A stretch of DNA of 26,846 nt from Reyranella sp. (GTDB taxonomy: Bacteria; Pseudomonadota; Alphaproteobacteria; Reyranellales; Reyranellaceae): positions 1-26,846 of the forward strand of contig JADHLS010000001.1 of assembly GCA_016780605.1 (NCBI GenBank), read 5' to 3'. The position numbers and the translations under genes were made by a program. The notes under the pieces were generated by a model. The model was not told the origin of the DNA, did no database searches, and saw nothing but the letters and a program-made list of their open reading frames with translations. Positions within the stretch are counted from its first letter, which is position 1, and every line of letters begins with the position of its first letter. Positions 21,668 through 26,846 of this stretch are shown one piece after another.

Positions 21668-22534
21668 ATGGACACGACCCTCGGCCTCCCCGTCGAGATC
21701 TCCGACTGGAAGCCCGCGCCGTTCGCGGTGGGCGGCGACAGCGTGTTCGCGATCGGCGATGTGCACGGCTGCTCGGCCGAGCTCGGCGCGCTCCTGGGCG
21801 CCATCGCCCGCCTCGGCCATGACTTCGAGGGCAAGCGGCGCATCATCTATCTCGGCGACATGATCAATCGCGGCCCCGACACGATCGGGGTGCTCGAGCA
21901 GTGGGCGCGTGACGAGGAGGCCCATGGCGTCGACCGTGTCGACCGCCTGATGGGCAACCATGAGATCATGATGCTGCTCACCGCGATCGACGGTCCGCAT
22001 GCCCGCAAGGCCGAGCAGATGTGGCTTTCCAAGCGCATGGGCGGCGACAAATTCCTGGCGCAGATGCGCGAGCGCGTCGGGCGTCCCGATGCGCCGCCCG
22101 ATCAGGCGCTGCTCAAGGCGGCGCTGGGTGAGGCCGTCTTCCATCGCCTGTGGGGCATGCGCAGCCATGTGCGGCTCGGCAATGCGCTGTTCGTCCATGG
22201 CGGACTCGACCCGCACGCCGACCCCGACGAGTTTCTGGCGCGGCCCTGGACCATCTTCACCGAGGCGCGCTGGGCCTGGATCAACCATGGCTTCCTCGAC
22301 TGGAAGGGCGGCTTCAAGGGCACACTGGTGGTGCATGGCCACACACCTCCCGACAAGCATCAGGCCATCAGCGGCATGGAAGACGTGCATCTGTTCGAGG
22401 GCGATCGTCTGGGCCTGGATGGCGGCAGCGCCCGCACCGGCATCGTCACCGCCGCCGAGATCCGTCACGGCGCCTATCGCATCCTGAAGGCCGGCACAGC
22501 CTTCGCCGCGCCCATGTCCTCCAACGACGGATAG
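21668..22534 (+). CDS. PPP-type metallophosphoesterase (protein phosphatase or Ap4A hydrolase-like)
   Basis: 288 aa with the full two-metal signature: GDVHG (residues 30-34), GDMINRG (63-69), GNHE (96-99), then a His in FVHGG and another in VVHGHTP. This order defines the PPP branch that includes bacterial serine/threonine phosphatases and symmetrical diadenosine tetraphosphatases. Substrate choice between phosphoproteins and Ap4A cannot be made by reading. It is cytoplasmic, with no signal peptide. It starts 16 bases after mscS and probably shares its transcript. Confidence 0.88.
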   Translation: MDTTLGLPVEISDWKPAPFAVGGDSVFAIGDVHGCSAELGALLGAIARLGHDFEGKRRIIYLGDMINRGPDTIGVLEQWARDEEAHGVDRVDRLMGNHEIMMLLTAIDGPHARKAEQMWLSKRMGGDKFLAQMRERVGRPDAPPDQALLKAALGEAVFHRLWGMRSHVRLGNALFVHGGLDPHADPDEFLARPWTIFTEARWAWINHGFLDWKGGFKGTLVVHGHTPPDKHQAISGMEDVHLFEGDRLGLDGGSARTGIVTAAEIRHGAYRILKAGTAFAAPMSSNDG

Positions 22535-22556
22535 GCGGCGATTTTTCCGCCGGTCT

Positions 22557-22583
22557 TGTCGGAATCAAACCTGGTCGTTCGTC
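22557..22583 (+). promoter_or_regulatory. Predicted ECF42 promoter of the DGPF-sigma operon
   Basis: TGTCGG (22557-22562), a 17-base spacer and CGTC (22580-22583), 24 bases before the ATG of the DGPF gene. The consensus I recall for ECF42 sigma factors is TGTCGA with CGA/TC, so the -35 box differs at one base. The second copy at 24359-24385 has the same spacing and the same GTTCGTCCT context around the -10 box. An autoregulated operon is the inference. Confidence 0.72.
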
Positions 22584-22607
22584 CTAGGCAAAATCGAGGG
22601 TCTTGCC

Positions 22608-22997
22608 ATGCTTTACGCTATCCTTTGCTACAACTCCGAGGACGCGGTCGGCGCGTGGTCCAAGGAGTACCACGACGAGACCATGGCCAAGCTGATGGTC
22701 GTTCAGGACAAGCTCGCCAAGCAGGGCCGACTGGGGCCTGTTGCTCGCCTGCTGCCGACCACGGCCGCCACCACCCTGCGCAAGGGGCGCGATGAGCTGG
22801 TGATCGACGGTCCCTTCGCCGAGACCAAGGAGCAGCTGCTGGGCTTCTACATCATCGACTGCGCCTCGCTCGAGCAGGCCATCGCGACGGCCAAGGACCT
22901 CGCCAAGGCCAATCCGGGGACCGGCAGCTATGAGATCCGGCCGGTGGCCGAGCTGCATGACAATCGCCTCGCCCTCGAGCGGAAGCCGGCGGCGTGA
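22608..22997 (+). CDS. DGPF/YCII-related protein, ECF42 partner
   Basis: 129 aa with the YCII-like ferredoxin-fold. The motif DGPF at residues 67-70, followed by AETKEQLLGFYIIDC, is the hallmark of the DGPF family found beside ECF42 sigma factors. The biochemical role is unknown; an enzymatic or ligand-binding function has been proposed for the fold. A GAGGG ribosome binding site precedes the ATG. Its stop codon overlaps the GTG start codon of the sigma gene, so the two are translationally coupled under the promoter at 22557. Confidence 0.92.
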   Translation: MLYAILCYNSEDAVGAWSKEYHDETMAKLMVVQDKLAKQGRLGPVARLLPTTAATTLRKGRDELVIDGPFAETKEQLLGFYIIDCASLEQAIATAKDLAKANPGTGSYEIRPVAELHDNRLALERKPAA

Positions 22998-24274
22998 ACG
23001 ATATCGGCTGGATCGACGCGGTCCTGAGCGCCGCGCGTCCCCAGGCGATGGGGGCACTGCTGCGCTATTTCCGCGATCTCGATACGGCCGAAGAGGCTTT
23101 CCAGGAAGCCTGCCTGCGCGCGCTGCGCACTTGGCCGCAGAATGGCCCGCCGCGCGATGCCGCCGCCTGGCTGATCTTCGTCGGCCGCAACGCGGCGATG
23201 GACGACGTGCGCCGGCGCGCCAAGCAGGTGGCGCTGCCCGACGAGGCGACGATCTCCGACCTCGACGATGCCGAGAGCGCGATGGCCGACCGGCTGGACA
23301 GCGAGCAGTACCGCGACGACATCCTGCGGCTGCTGTTCATCTGTTGCCATCCCGAGCTGCCGGCGACGCAGCAGATCGCCCTGGCGCTGCGGGTCGTCTG
23401 CGGCCTGCCGGTGCGGCAGATCGCACGCGCCTTCCTCGTGGGCGAAGGCGCGATGGAGCAGCGCCTGACGCGGGCCAAGGCGCGAATCGCCGATGCCGGG
23501 ACGGCGTTCGAGACGCCGGGCGCCGACCAGCGGGCCGAGCGGCTGGCCGCGGTGTCGGCGATGATCTACCTGGTGTTCAACGAGGGCTATTCGGCGCGTG
23601 GCGATAAGGCCAAGGCGCGCACGGCTCTCGCCAATGAAGGCATCCGCCTGGTGCGGCTACTGCTACGTGTCTTCCCGCAGGAGCCGGAGGTCATGGGCTT
23701 GGCCGCGCTCATGCTGCTGCAGCAGGCTCGCGCGCCGGCACGCTTCGCCGCGGACGGTGCCATTATCCTGCTGGAAGACCAGGATCGCCGCCGCTGGAAC
23801 GACAAGCAGATCGCCGAAGGCCTGGCGCTGATCGACAAGGCAATGCGCCATCGCCGGCCCGGGCCCTACCAGGTGCAGGCCGCGATCGCCGCCCTGCATG
23901 CCCAAGCCAGACGGCCGGAGGAAACCGACTGGGCGCAGATCGATCTGCTCTATGCCAATCTCGAGCGCTTGCAGCCCTCGCCGGTGGTGACGCTCAATCG
24001 CGCCGTGGCAGTGAACAAGCTGCGCGGGCCGGAGGCCGCCTTGGCGATGATCGAGCCCCTCAGCGCGCGCCTCTCGGGATATTTCTATTTTCATGGCGTG
24101 AAGGGCGCGCTGCTACAGCAGCTCGACCGCCACGCCGAGGCGCGCGCCGCCTTCGACCGCGCAATCTCGCTGGCAAACACGCCCGCTGAGGCCGCCCACA
24201 TCCGTCACCATCTCGACCATCTCGACAAGGAAAGCGTTCTTGCCGGACCGCGGGCCTCCAGGCCCGCATCATGA
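22994..24274 (+). CDS. ECF42-group RNA polymerase sigma factor with C-terminal TPR-like extension
   Basis: 426 aa, much longer than a plain ECF factor. Region sigma2 lies at about residues 15-75 (DTAEEAFQEACLRAL, AAWLIFVGRNAAMDDVRR). Sigma4 lies at about 110-170 (PATQQIALALRVVCGLPVRQIARAF). The rest is the helical TPR-like domain of this group (VFNEGYSARG, ALANEGIRLVRLL, VTLNRAVAV), which is thought to replace an anti-sigma factor. No anti-sigma gene is nearby. The GTG start overlaps the DGPF stop codon. The last 12 residues (415-426) and the stop codon are encoded by the palindromic element that begins at 24237, so the natural C terminus was probably near residue 412. Confidence 0.93.
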   Translation: MNDIGWIDAVLSAARPQAMGALLRYFRDLDTAEEAFQEACLRALRTWPQNGPPRDAAAWLIFVGRNAAMDDVRRRAKQVALPDEATISDLDDAESAMADRLDSEQYRDDILRLLFICCHPELPATQQIALALRVVCGLPVRQIARAFLVGEGAMEQRLTRAKARIADAGTAFETPGADQRAERLAAVSAMIYLVFNEGYSARGDKAKARTALANEGIRLVRLLLRVFPQEPEVMGLAALMLLQQARAPARFAADGAIILLEDQDRRRWNDKQIAEGLALIDKAMRHRRPGPYQVQAAIAALHAQARRPEETDWAQIDLLYANLERLQPSPVVTLNRAVAVNKLRGPEAALAMIEPLSARLSGYFYFHGVKGALLQQLDRHAEARAAFDRAISLANTPAEAAHIRHHLDHLDKESVLAGPRASRPAS

Positions 24275-24343
24275 GTCATGAGCGCGGAGAGCCGCATCGA
24301 CCCTCGGTCGATGCGGCGTTGGAGGCCCGCGGTCCGGCAAGAA
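24237..24343. repeat. Palindromic element E with 24-bp perfect terminal inverted repeats, overlapping the sigma gene 3' end
   Basis: The outer arms 24237-24260 and 24320-24343 are exact reverse complements (start TTCTTGCCGG, end CCGGCAAGAA). The left arm contains the hairpin gcgggcct-cc-aggcccgc. The spacer carries ATCATGAG and CATGAGCGCGG, as in the other copies. Just before the right arm is a second perfect hairpin with 11-bp stems (24292-24302 and 24306-24316, loop CTC). The element ends 15 bp before the second ECF42 promoter. Confidence 0.92.
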
Positions 24344-24358
24344 AAACTCGAGTCGCCA

Positions 24359-24385
24359 TGTCGATTCGCAGCCTCCCCGTTCGTC
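24359..24385 (+). promoter_or_regulatory. Predicted ECF42 promoter of the VOC-DoxX operon
   Basis: TGTCGA (24359-24364), a 17-base spacer and CGTC (24382-24385), 40 bases before the VOC start codon. This is an exact match to the ECF42 consensus I recall. It has the same spacing as the upstream copy and shares GTTCGTCCT around the -10 box, so the two promoters support each other. Confidence 0.78.
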
Positions 24386-24425
24386 CTTGGGTCATGCCTG
24401 TTGGCCCCACTGAACGGAGACTGTC

Positions 24426-24833
24426 ATGAACCAAGCCCTTCCCCCGGTCCTCGGCGGCGTCGCGCCCTATCTCGGCGTCAGCGATGCCGGCAAAGCCGCC
24501 GACTTCTATGCCAAGGCGCTCGGCGCCAAGGAAGTCATGCGCATGCCGCCCGATGACAAGGGCCGCTACATGCACATCCATCTCGTGGTCAATGGCGGCT
24601 CGTTGATGCTGGCCGACGCCTTCCCCGACCATGGCCATCCGCTGGAGAGCCACGGCGGTTATACCCTGCATCTGCAGGTCGATGATGCCGACGCCTGGTG
24701 GAAGCGCGCCGTCGACGCGGGCGCCGAGCCGTTGATGCCGGTGACTGTCATGTTCTGGGGCGACCGCTACGGCCAGTTCCGCGACCCCTACGGCGTGCGC
24801 TGGTCGGTCGGCACGACGCCGAAGCAGGCCTGA
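24426..24833 (+). CDS. VOC-superfamily (PhnB/glyoxalase-like) protein
   Basis: 135 aa, one complete VOC unit of the PhnB-like type: VAPYLGVSDAGKAADFYAKALGAKEV at the N terminus, a YTLHLQVDDADAWWKRAVDAGA helix in the middle, and WGDRYGQFRDPYGVRWSVG at the end. The usual first His ligand is replaced by Pro14-Tyr15, as in many PhnB-like members, so metal catalysis is doubtful. GGAG precedes the ATG. It is the first gene of the second predicted ECF42 operon and is followed after two bases by the DoxX-like gene. Such proteins recur beside ECF42 systems. Confidence 0.9.
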   Translation: MNQALPPVLGGVAPYLGVSDAGKAADFYAKALGAKEVMRMPPDDKGRYMHIHLVVNGGSLMLADAFPDHGHPLESHGGYTLHLQVDDADAWWKRAVDAGAEPLMPVTVMFWGDRYGQFRDPYGVRWSVGTTPKQA

Positions 24834-24835
24834 CC

Positions 24836-25234
24836 ATGAACACCGGGGCCGCCTTGTGGACAGGGCGCGCGTTGAGCGGCATCGCCATCCTGTTCCTTAC
24901 CGTTGACGGCGCCATCAAGCTGGTGCCGATCCAGCCGGTCACCGACAGCCTGCGCGAGCTCGGCTATCCGGCCAGCGATTCCCTTGCTCGTTTCATCGGC
25001 GTCGTGACGCTGCTTGGTACCGCCCTCTATGCCTGGTCCCGCACCGCGCTTCTCGGCGCGGTGCTGCTGACGGGTCTGATGGGCGGCGCGATCGCGAGCC
25101 ACCTGCGGCTCGACCATCCGCTGTTCAGCCACACGCTGTTCGGCGTGTGGCTCGGCCTGTTCCTGTGGGTTGGCCTGTGGCTACGCCTGCCGCATGTGCG
25201 GCAGGCTCTCCCGATCAGCCGATCAGCTCCGTGA
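24836..25234 (+). CDS. DoxX-like small membrane protein
   Basis: 132 aa with four predicted transmembrane helices (about residues 10-30, 50-66, 70-88 and 98-117). A DGAIKLVP segment follows the first helix, and a SHLRLDHPLFSHTLFG loop precedes the fourth, as in DoxX-like families. The role is unknown; family members are linked to redox or thiol stress. It starts two bases after the VOC stop codon and so shares its ECF42-type promoter. Its 3' end overlaps the convergent kinase gene by 20 bases. Confidence 0.85.
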   Translation: MNTGAALWTGRALSGIAILFLTVDGAIKLVPIQPVTDSLRELGYPASDSLARFIGVVTLLGTALYAWSRTALLGAVLLTGLMGGAIASHLRLDHPLFSHTLFGVWLGLFLWVGLWLRLPHVRQALPISRSAP

Positions 25235-26846
25235 TCTTTTCGGCGAGCTGGTGCTGGCGATAGGGCTTCGACAGGCGCGGCAGGTCGACCTTGCTTCGCG
25301 CCGGAAGATCGGCGTAGCCGGTGGCGAGCAGGACAGGCAATTCGGGCCTCAACGCGCGGGCTTCCGCCGCCAGCTGCACGCCGTTCATGCCCGGCATGGC
25401 GTAGTCGGTGATCAGGAGGTCGATCGCCTTGTCGCTTTTCAACACCTCCATCGCGGCATCTCCGGACGCTGCCTTGATCACCGCATGCCCGAGATCCTCC
25501 AGTAGCGCCACCGTGCTGAGGCTGATCAAAGGGTCGTCGTCGACGAACAGCAGTGTGTAGCGACGCACGCTCGGCTCGGCGTCAGTTGTTCCCTCGGCCG
25601 GCGGCACATGCGCGTCACCCTCGGCGGCCGGCAGCCACAACTCTGCGCGTGTCCCCCGGGCAGGTTCACTGTGCAGTCGCAACGCGCCTTTCAACTGCAG
25701 CGCCAAGCCATGGATCATCGAGAGGCCGAGGCCTGTGCCCTTGCCGACCTCCTTTGTCGAAAAGAACGGCTCGACCGCACGCGTCAAGGTCTGGGCATCC
25801 ATGCCGCAACCGGTATCGGACACGCAGATCCGCACATAGCGGCCCGGCATGAGATCGTTCGCGTCGGCCACATTCTCCGACGAGAGGGCAATCGTCAGCG
25901 TTCCCCCGTCGGGCGTGGCGTCACGGGCATTGACCGCCAGATTGAGCAAGGCGAGGTCGATCTGGTTGGCATCGGCCAGGGCCGGCGGCAGGTCAGTCGG
26001 CAGATCGAGGGCGATGGTGATGGATGGACCGAGCGAATGGCGCAGCAGATCCATGACGCCGCGCACCAATTCGGCGAGGTCGATGGCTTTGGGCTGGAGC
26101 GCCTGACGCCGCGCGAAGGCAAGCAGGCGCTGGGTCAGGGCAGCACCGCGCTGGGCGCCTTGTGTGGCGCCGTCGATCAGGCGGTTGGTCAGGGGATCGA
26201 ATGGCAAACGTTTCCGCAGAAGCTCGAGATTGCCTAATACGGCGGTCAGCAAGTTGTTGAAGTCATGCGCCACGCCGCCGGTGAGCTGGCCGATCGATTC
26301 GAGCTTCTGAAGCTGGCGCAGCTGTTCCCCGGTGCGCGTGCGCTCGGCGATCTCAGCCAACAGCTCGTCGTGCGCCTGCTGGAGCTGGGCAGTGCGCTCT
26401 TGGACACGAAGCTCGAGCTCGTCGTTGATCTGTTGCAGCCGCGTCTCGCCTTGACGCAAGTCCTCCAGCAGCGAGCGGGTTTCCAGCTGCCGCCGCCGTC
26501 CTTTCACGGTGGCGCGCACCAGGCTCACCAGGGTGGTCGGATGGAACGGCCGCTCGATGAAGGAGACGTTGCCCAGGATCTCCAGCCACCGCCCCGCGAT
26601 CGGATTGCGCTCCGGGCCGCCACCGTGGTCGGTGACCAGCACGAACGGCAGGTCGGACCACGCCGGCTGGTTGCCAAGCCAAGCCGCCAAAGGTTTGAGA
26701 TCGGCGCTGCGGATGGCGTCTTCCGTCACCAGCACGAATGCCGTGTCGTCGTCGAGCGCTTCCACCAGCGCCGCGACGTCGCGGCAGGCGACGCTCTCGA
26801 CTTCCACCTGGTCGATCAACGACCTTGCAACGGCGGCATCTCGGCC
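25215..26846 (-). CDS. Hybrid sensor histidine kinase/response regulator (5' end outside the window)
   Basis: About 543 residues are visible; the frame is open to the right edge, so the N terminus is missing. The order is an N-terminal region starting GRDAAVARSL that may be a pseudo-receiver, a long coiled coil with LEDLRQGETRLQQIN and similar heptads, and the HisKA motif GGVAHDFNNLLTAVLGN with the phosphoacceptor His at 26265-26267. The ATPase domain follows (NLAVNARDATPDGG, DTGCGMD, GTGLGLSM), then a C-terminal receiver with Asp at 25404-25406 in LLITDYAMPG and Lys in RLSKPYR. No transmembrane helix is visible, so it is a cytoplasmic kinase, probably phosphorylating its own receiver. An in-frame TTG at 26819 is unlikely to be the real start. 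Confidence 0.92.
   Translation of the reverse strand, partial: GRDAAVARSLIDQVEVESVACRDVAALVEALDDDTAFVLVTEDAIRSADLKPLAAWLGNQPAWSDLPFVLVTDHGGGPERNPIAGRWLEILGNVSFIERPFHPTTLVSLVRATVKGRRRQLETRSLLEDLRQGETRLQQINDELELRVQERTAQLQQAHDELLAEIAERTRTGEQLRQLQKLESIGQLTGGVAHDFNNLLTAVLGNLELLRKRLPFDPLTNRLIDGATQGAQRGAALTQRLLAFARRQALQPKAIDLAELVRGVMDLLRHSLGPSITIALDLPTDLPPALADANQIDLALLNLAVNARDATPDGGTLTIALSSENVADANDLMPGRYVRICVSDTGCGMDAQTLTRAVEPFFSTKEVGKGTGLGLSMIHGLALQLKGALRLHSEPARGTRAELWLPAAEGDAHVPPAEGTTDAEPSVRRYTLLFVDDDPLISLSTVALLEDLGHAVIKAASGDAAMEVLKSDKAIDLLITDYAMPGMNGVQLAAEARALRPELPVLLATGYADLPARSKVDLPRLSKPYRQHQLAEKITELIG

Follow-up and report, generated by a model that had tools for sequence, protein, structure and literature searches.

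The locus raises the question of whether one ECF42-type sigma factor reads both of the similar promoter motifs that stand before its own operon and before the operon next to it, and how far its regulon would extend. Sigma factors of this group are widespread. The window, which is the whole stretch of DNA analysed here, covers 26,846 nt of a Reyranella sp. contig, and a first-pass annotation had proposed that a DGPF-sigma operon and a VOC-DoxX operon in it form a local, autoregulated regulon linking DGPF, VOC and DoxX. The gene content of both operons is borne out by Pfam domains (PF03795, the sigma domains, PF00903, and PF13564). Genes for an MscS-type channel (PF00924), a metallophosphatase (PF00149), a YCII-related (DGPF) protein of 129 residues (22608..22997; PF03795, E 1.2e-21), an ECF42-type sigma factor of 426 residues with a GTG start (22994..24274; PF04542, PF08281, and PF20239 above cut-off), a VOC (glyoxalase-like) protein of 135 residues (24426..24833; PF00903, E 6.9e-20) and a DoxX-like membrane protein of 132 residues (24836..25234; PF13564, E 2.2e-17) follow each other in this order on the forward strand. 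Translation of YCII and sigma is likely coupled because the end of the former gene and the start of the latter share 4 nt; the DoxX ATG lies 2 nt past the VOC stop codon. A gene for a histidine kinase/response-regulator hybrid (25215-26819) is convergent to the locus, and its 3′ end overlaps that of the DoxX gene by 20 nt (25215-25234).

The assignment of the sigma factor to the ECF42 type also stood, with sigma2, sigma4, and DUF6596 domains all present. PF04542 and PF08281 scored above cut-off and no other sigma region was found, while the C-terminal extension, a feature of about 200 residues in ECF42 sigma factors, spans residues ~166 to 426 here and carries DUF6596 (E 1.6e-33) together with a weak TPR part (TPR_1, PF00515, below its cut-off). 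The PF03795 gene lies directly upstream and is kept there in relatives, and the pattern TGTCGR ... CGTC occurs, by sequence only, at the sigma operon and at the putative targets. Among NCBIfam models the generic sigma70-ECF alone was above cut-off for this protein. No anti-sigma factor was found among the neighbouring genes scanned for domains; the DUF6596/TPR-like extension would stand in for one. The relevant passage of a review describes the ECF42 extension as essential and considers that the conserved YCII neighbour may share in control, and its Streptomyces venezuelae ECF42 sigma factors resemble the one in the window in their C-terminal TPR-rich extension and YCII/DGPF neighbours (PMC8999054). 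Judging from this literature and the 4-nt overlap, the YCII partner is the likeliest protein to tune the sigma factor.

Both promoter motifs were confirmed at their places in the window, each with the 17-base spacer described earlier: TGTCGG-N17-CGTCCT before the YCII-sigma operon (22557..22585, forward strand), starting 51 nt upstream of the YCII ATG (22608), and TGTCGA-N17-CGTCCT before the VOC-DoxX operon (24359..24387, forward strand), starting 67 nt upstream of the VOC ATG (24426). The stretch common to both is indeed CGTTCGTCCT. Neither a sigma70-type promoter nor a simple terminator was found at 22300-25400. The genome scan proposed in the first-pass annotation, TGTCGR-N16/17-CGTC, recovers both sites but is too loose to say much alone, giving 85+66 matches (151) in the 4.34 Mb assembly (515 contigs, 61% complete) and 18+15 for a reversed-pattern control. 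With N17 fixed and CT required after the −10 box, 6 matches were left, two of them the window sites (control 0); with N16-N18 and CGTCTT allowed, there were 37 (5 for the reversed control).

A matrix trained on 64 sites upstream of YCII or VOC genes ranked the two sites best and second best in the window, at 26.2 (22557) and 21.0 (24359) with the next best at 4.4. The training loci, L059-L118, have a sigma identity of no more than 76%, and none of their records has Reyranella in its title. These scores carry a caveat: the sites used for training had been selected with TGTCGR-N17-CGT[CT], which partly builds in the invariant columns of the matrix, so that it is fairer to count how many loci have the motif and how many lack it. 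Mononucleotide shuffling of the window (100 times, one strand scored in each) gave a mean matrix maximum of 4.6 and a single highest value of 20.3. A second matrix, which includes the window's own sites, gave them 35.8 and 26.9 and gave the four other strict matches in the assembly −6.4 to 14.8. Judged by the strict pattern, no sites in the available 61% of this genome resemble ECF42 promoters apart from those in the window. The A of TGTCGA in the VOC promoter is rare, being found in 2 of 112 distinct N17 sites (that of the window and that of L031). TGTCGA is reportedly also the −35 consensus of Streptomyces venezuelae ECF42, in work by Liu from 2018.

Counting was done on the best 80 of 488 relatives (all of loci L039-L118); loci L009-L038 were left out of the YCII count, being partly the same genomes again. 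TGTCGR-N17-CGTC stands before YCII in 71 of these 80 loci, 48-60 nt from the start codon, and an N18 version adds one more. The others comprise a locus cut by a contig end (L061), three with GGTCGG (L104, L109, and L112), two with CGTT instead of CGTC (L078 and L114) and two with no recognisable motif before YCII (L110 and L111). Among VOC homologues of at least 50% identity in the same set, 37/40 have the motif at most 130 nt upstream, and it was not found within that distance in L059, L093, and L096. It is kept even where VOC lies on the opposite strand, ~1.5-4.8 kb upstream of YCII (12/12; Rhizobium, Neorhizobium, and one “Rhizobiales bacterium”). For comparison, a 130-nt stretch of one strand has a background of ~0.01 matches, a figure that includes the true sites. 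Outside Reyranella the motif also stands before genes of an SRPBCC-like family in 25 loci (Polyketide_cyc2 below cut-off), before AHSA1 in 16 and before SnoaL-like genes in 8, each family named from the scan of one representative.

Co-occurrence was followed in 37 Reyranella genomes (G000-G036), drawn from a larger group, of which 19 carry a sigma orthologue of at least 75% identity (cut by a contig end in G013) and 18 do not. VOC orthologues (at least 69% identity) occur in 17/19 against 0/18 genomes (Fisher p 1.2e-8), AHSA1 genes (at least 77%) in 17/19 against 2/18 (Fisher p 1.7e-6), and strict motifs away from the sigma locus number 43 against 12 (rank p 2.6e-5), with p values that are too small, the tests ignoring shared ancestry. 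One genome, G006, has the sigma factor and no VOC orthologue. Loci were available for, and examined at, 30 of the 47 AHSA1 matches: the motif precedes all 19 close homologues (at least 77%) and none of the 11 weaker ones. In G007 (73% complete) and G035 (89% complete) no such sigma factor was found, yet both have AHSA1 with the motif.

The strict pattern TGTCGG-N17-CGTCCT has 89 matches in the 37 genomes (reversed-pattern control 16). We scored 57 distal loci, made up of all 55 distal strict sites plus two with TGTCGA from the window's own assembly, and read the genes behind the motif in the 26 that scored as plausible. Among the matches listed, 24 of the 43 distal sites in genomes with the sigma factor stand ~55-66 nt before a recognised target, the families, assigned from one representative each, being AHSA1 (16), RibD_C (4), hydrolase (2), PhnB-like (1) and SRPBCC-like (1, by eye); the other 19 have matrix scores of 0.0 to 22.2 and no recognised target, some of them at contig ends. 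Two of the 12 distal sites in genomes without the sigma factor precede AHSA1, in G007 and G035. RibD_C (at least 60%) was found in five genomes, all with the sigma factor, and has the motif in 4/5, the exception being G004. Among the loci listed, the gene behind AHSA1 is in several genomes a second VOC-like one (by eye) or one for a SnoaL protein (PF07366). The regulon is therefore not just the local one proposed earlier, since in sister genomes the motif is also found before genes unlinked to the sigma locus (AHSA1 and, in small numbers, RibD_C, PhnB-like and hydrolase genes). Neither AHSA1 nor RibD_C was found at E 1e-20 in the window's own assembly (61% complete), which may reflect true absence or incompleteness. 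A strict match with an internal inverted repeat (of the TCGGTCGC...GCGACCG type) was seen in four genomes (L154, L163, L169, and L189), with no recognised target behind it.

The proposed link to DoxX fared no better. DoxX is the gene immediately behind VOC in 16/20 loci called Reyranella-like (L039-L058, some of which bear just higher-rank names) against 1/20 VOC-containing loci elsewhere, and we rejected it as a core member of the regulon. In the window DoxX would be co-transcribed with VOC, and by this comparison it looks like a passenger, incidental to the conserved core. At L084 (Rhodospirillales), the motif is followed in series by VOC, DoxX and a gene judged AHSA1-like by eye. A DoxX-family target is also known for another ECF sigma factor, sigmaF of Caulobacter crescentus; unlike the window, its regulon has a negative regulator with DUF1109, and no YCII or VOC appears among the regulon entries covered here (PMC3511200). 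A search of the open-licence literature found no overlap between papers on ECF42 and papers on DoxX with ECF sigma factors, and no paper joining SRPBCC, VOC family, sigma factor and DoxX.

The closest described system is RpoE10 of S. meliloti, an ECF42 sigma factor that shares with the window the YCII-sigma gene pair, the TGTCGG-N17-CGTC promoters and glyoxalase-like targets, as far as the relevant sections of the report go (PMC6180224). There, overexpression of RpoE10 induces glyoxalase-like and hydrophobic-ligand-binding targets, and the three promoters listed for RpoE10-related operons are all TGTCGG-N17-CGTC by our own counting (PMC6180224). The motif is thus not new to alphaproteobacteria, and an ECF42 sigma factor that raises glyoxalase-like and ligand-binding genes from such promoters was known before. 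Of the target operons, one adjoins the sigma gene by locus tag and one lies on pSymB (PMC6180224); the gene behind the pSymB promoter, taken as SMb20475, is PhnB-like (PF06983), unlike the VOC of the window. The VOC promoter differs in its TGTCGA from the TGTCGG of RpoE10, and the text on RpoE10 makes no mention of DoxX (PMC6180224). VOC copies at 36.5% identity are present on S. meliloti plasmids. The present comparison places the promoter known from S. meliloti in a further lineage, shows that it persists where VOC sits elsewhere, lengthens the list of targets within one genus and demotes DoxX: of the linked genes, VOC and AHSA1 look like core targets and DoxX looks incidental. The promoter is so well conserved that a short, testable target list could be drawn up across alphaproteobacteria.

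That one sigma factor reads both window promoters is well supported by these comparisons. In our preferred reading, to which we assign a probability of roughly 0.85, this is the adjacent sigma factor (22994-24274), which most likely guides RNA polymerase to TGTCGR-N17-CGTCCT upstream of both the YCII-sigma operon that encodes it and the VOC-DoxX operon, with YCII tuning it. In sister species it would probably read AHSA1 genes elsewhere in the genome too, and in a few of them RibD_C, hydrolase and PhnB-like genes as well, so that its output would consist of small proteins from families that bind ligands or detoxify. The earlier proposal that the sigma factor drives the VOC operon is supported by a motif kept in relatives in either orientation and by the co-occurrence of VOC and sigma. 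That both motifs arose by chance in a GC-rich genome, as the 151 loose matches might suggest, is scarcely credible given the top places that a matrix built on other loci assigns them, the co-occurrence and the conservation of the motif before both genes in relatives. Another ECF42 paralogue, rather than the adjacent sigma factor, could also read both sites: ECF42-like paralogues of 36-45% identity are present in Reyranella genomes, AHSA1 keeps its motif in G007 and G035, where no orthologue of the window sigma factor was detected, and in G034 (C116, site 2776; L188) a strict match with a low matrix score (3.0) is followed after 49 nt by such a paralogue of 37% identity. We consider this improbable, as each of the 18 genomes lacking the orthologue, mostly with a paralogue present, contains just 0-2 strict sites, and in the window's own assembly (61% complete) no such paralogue was found, the other sigma matches reaching 29-30% over the sigma core only.

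A harder case is autoregulation, where the alternative is that the sigma factor drives VOC-DoxX and other targets and hardly its own operon, the YCII motif being weak or bound to certain conditions. In S. meliloti, overexpression of RpoE10 did not raise the YCII gene SMc01151, so that no autoactivation was seen, and the motif overlaps the mapped 5′ end, according to the sections concerned (PMC6180224). A YCII motif held at N17 and 48-60 nt in 71/80 of the best 80 of 488 relatives would nevertheless be hard to explain if unused, and the YCII site is the best matrix match in the window; we therefore regard little use of the own promoter as unlikely, although it carries more weight than a paralogue. 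The first-pass annotation thus holds in its ECF42-type sigma factor, conserved promoters and association with VOC, and is not supported in the form in which it put the local extent, the DoxX link and autoregulation; for the last of these the conserved YCII motif speaks and the S. meliloti result does not. More tentatively, and with rather less than even confidence, the sigma factor may command a scattered YCII/VOC/AHSA1-SRPBCC/SnoaL/RibD_C/PhnB-like/hydrolase regulon for general small-molecule detoxification, with DoxX as membrane arm and YCII as sensor or partner of the C-terminal extension.

The 3′ end of the sigma gene and part of the gap between sigma and VOC are covered by a palindromic element (24237..24343) recognised by its fold and its copies. 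Its 34-nt arms are 91% complementary, the predicted RNA fold has −90.1 kcal/mol (z −13), and about the last 12 sigma residues are encoded within it. It is a dispersed element: the window's own assembly has 63 matches, and 24/37 Reyranella genomes have matches too.
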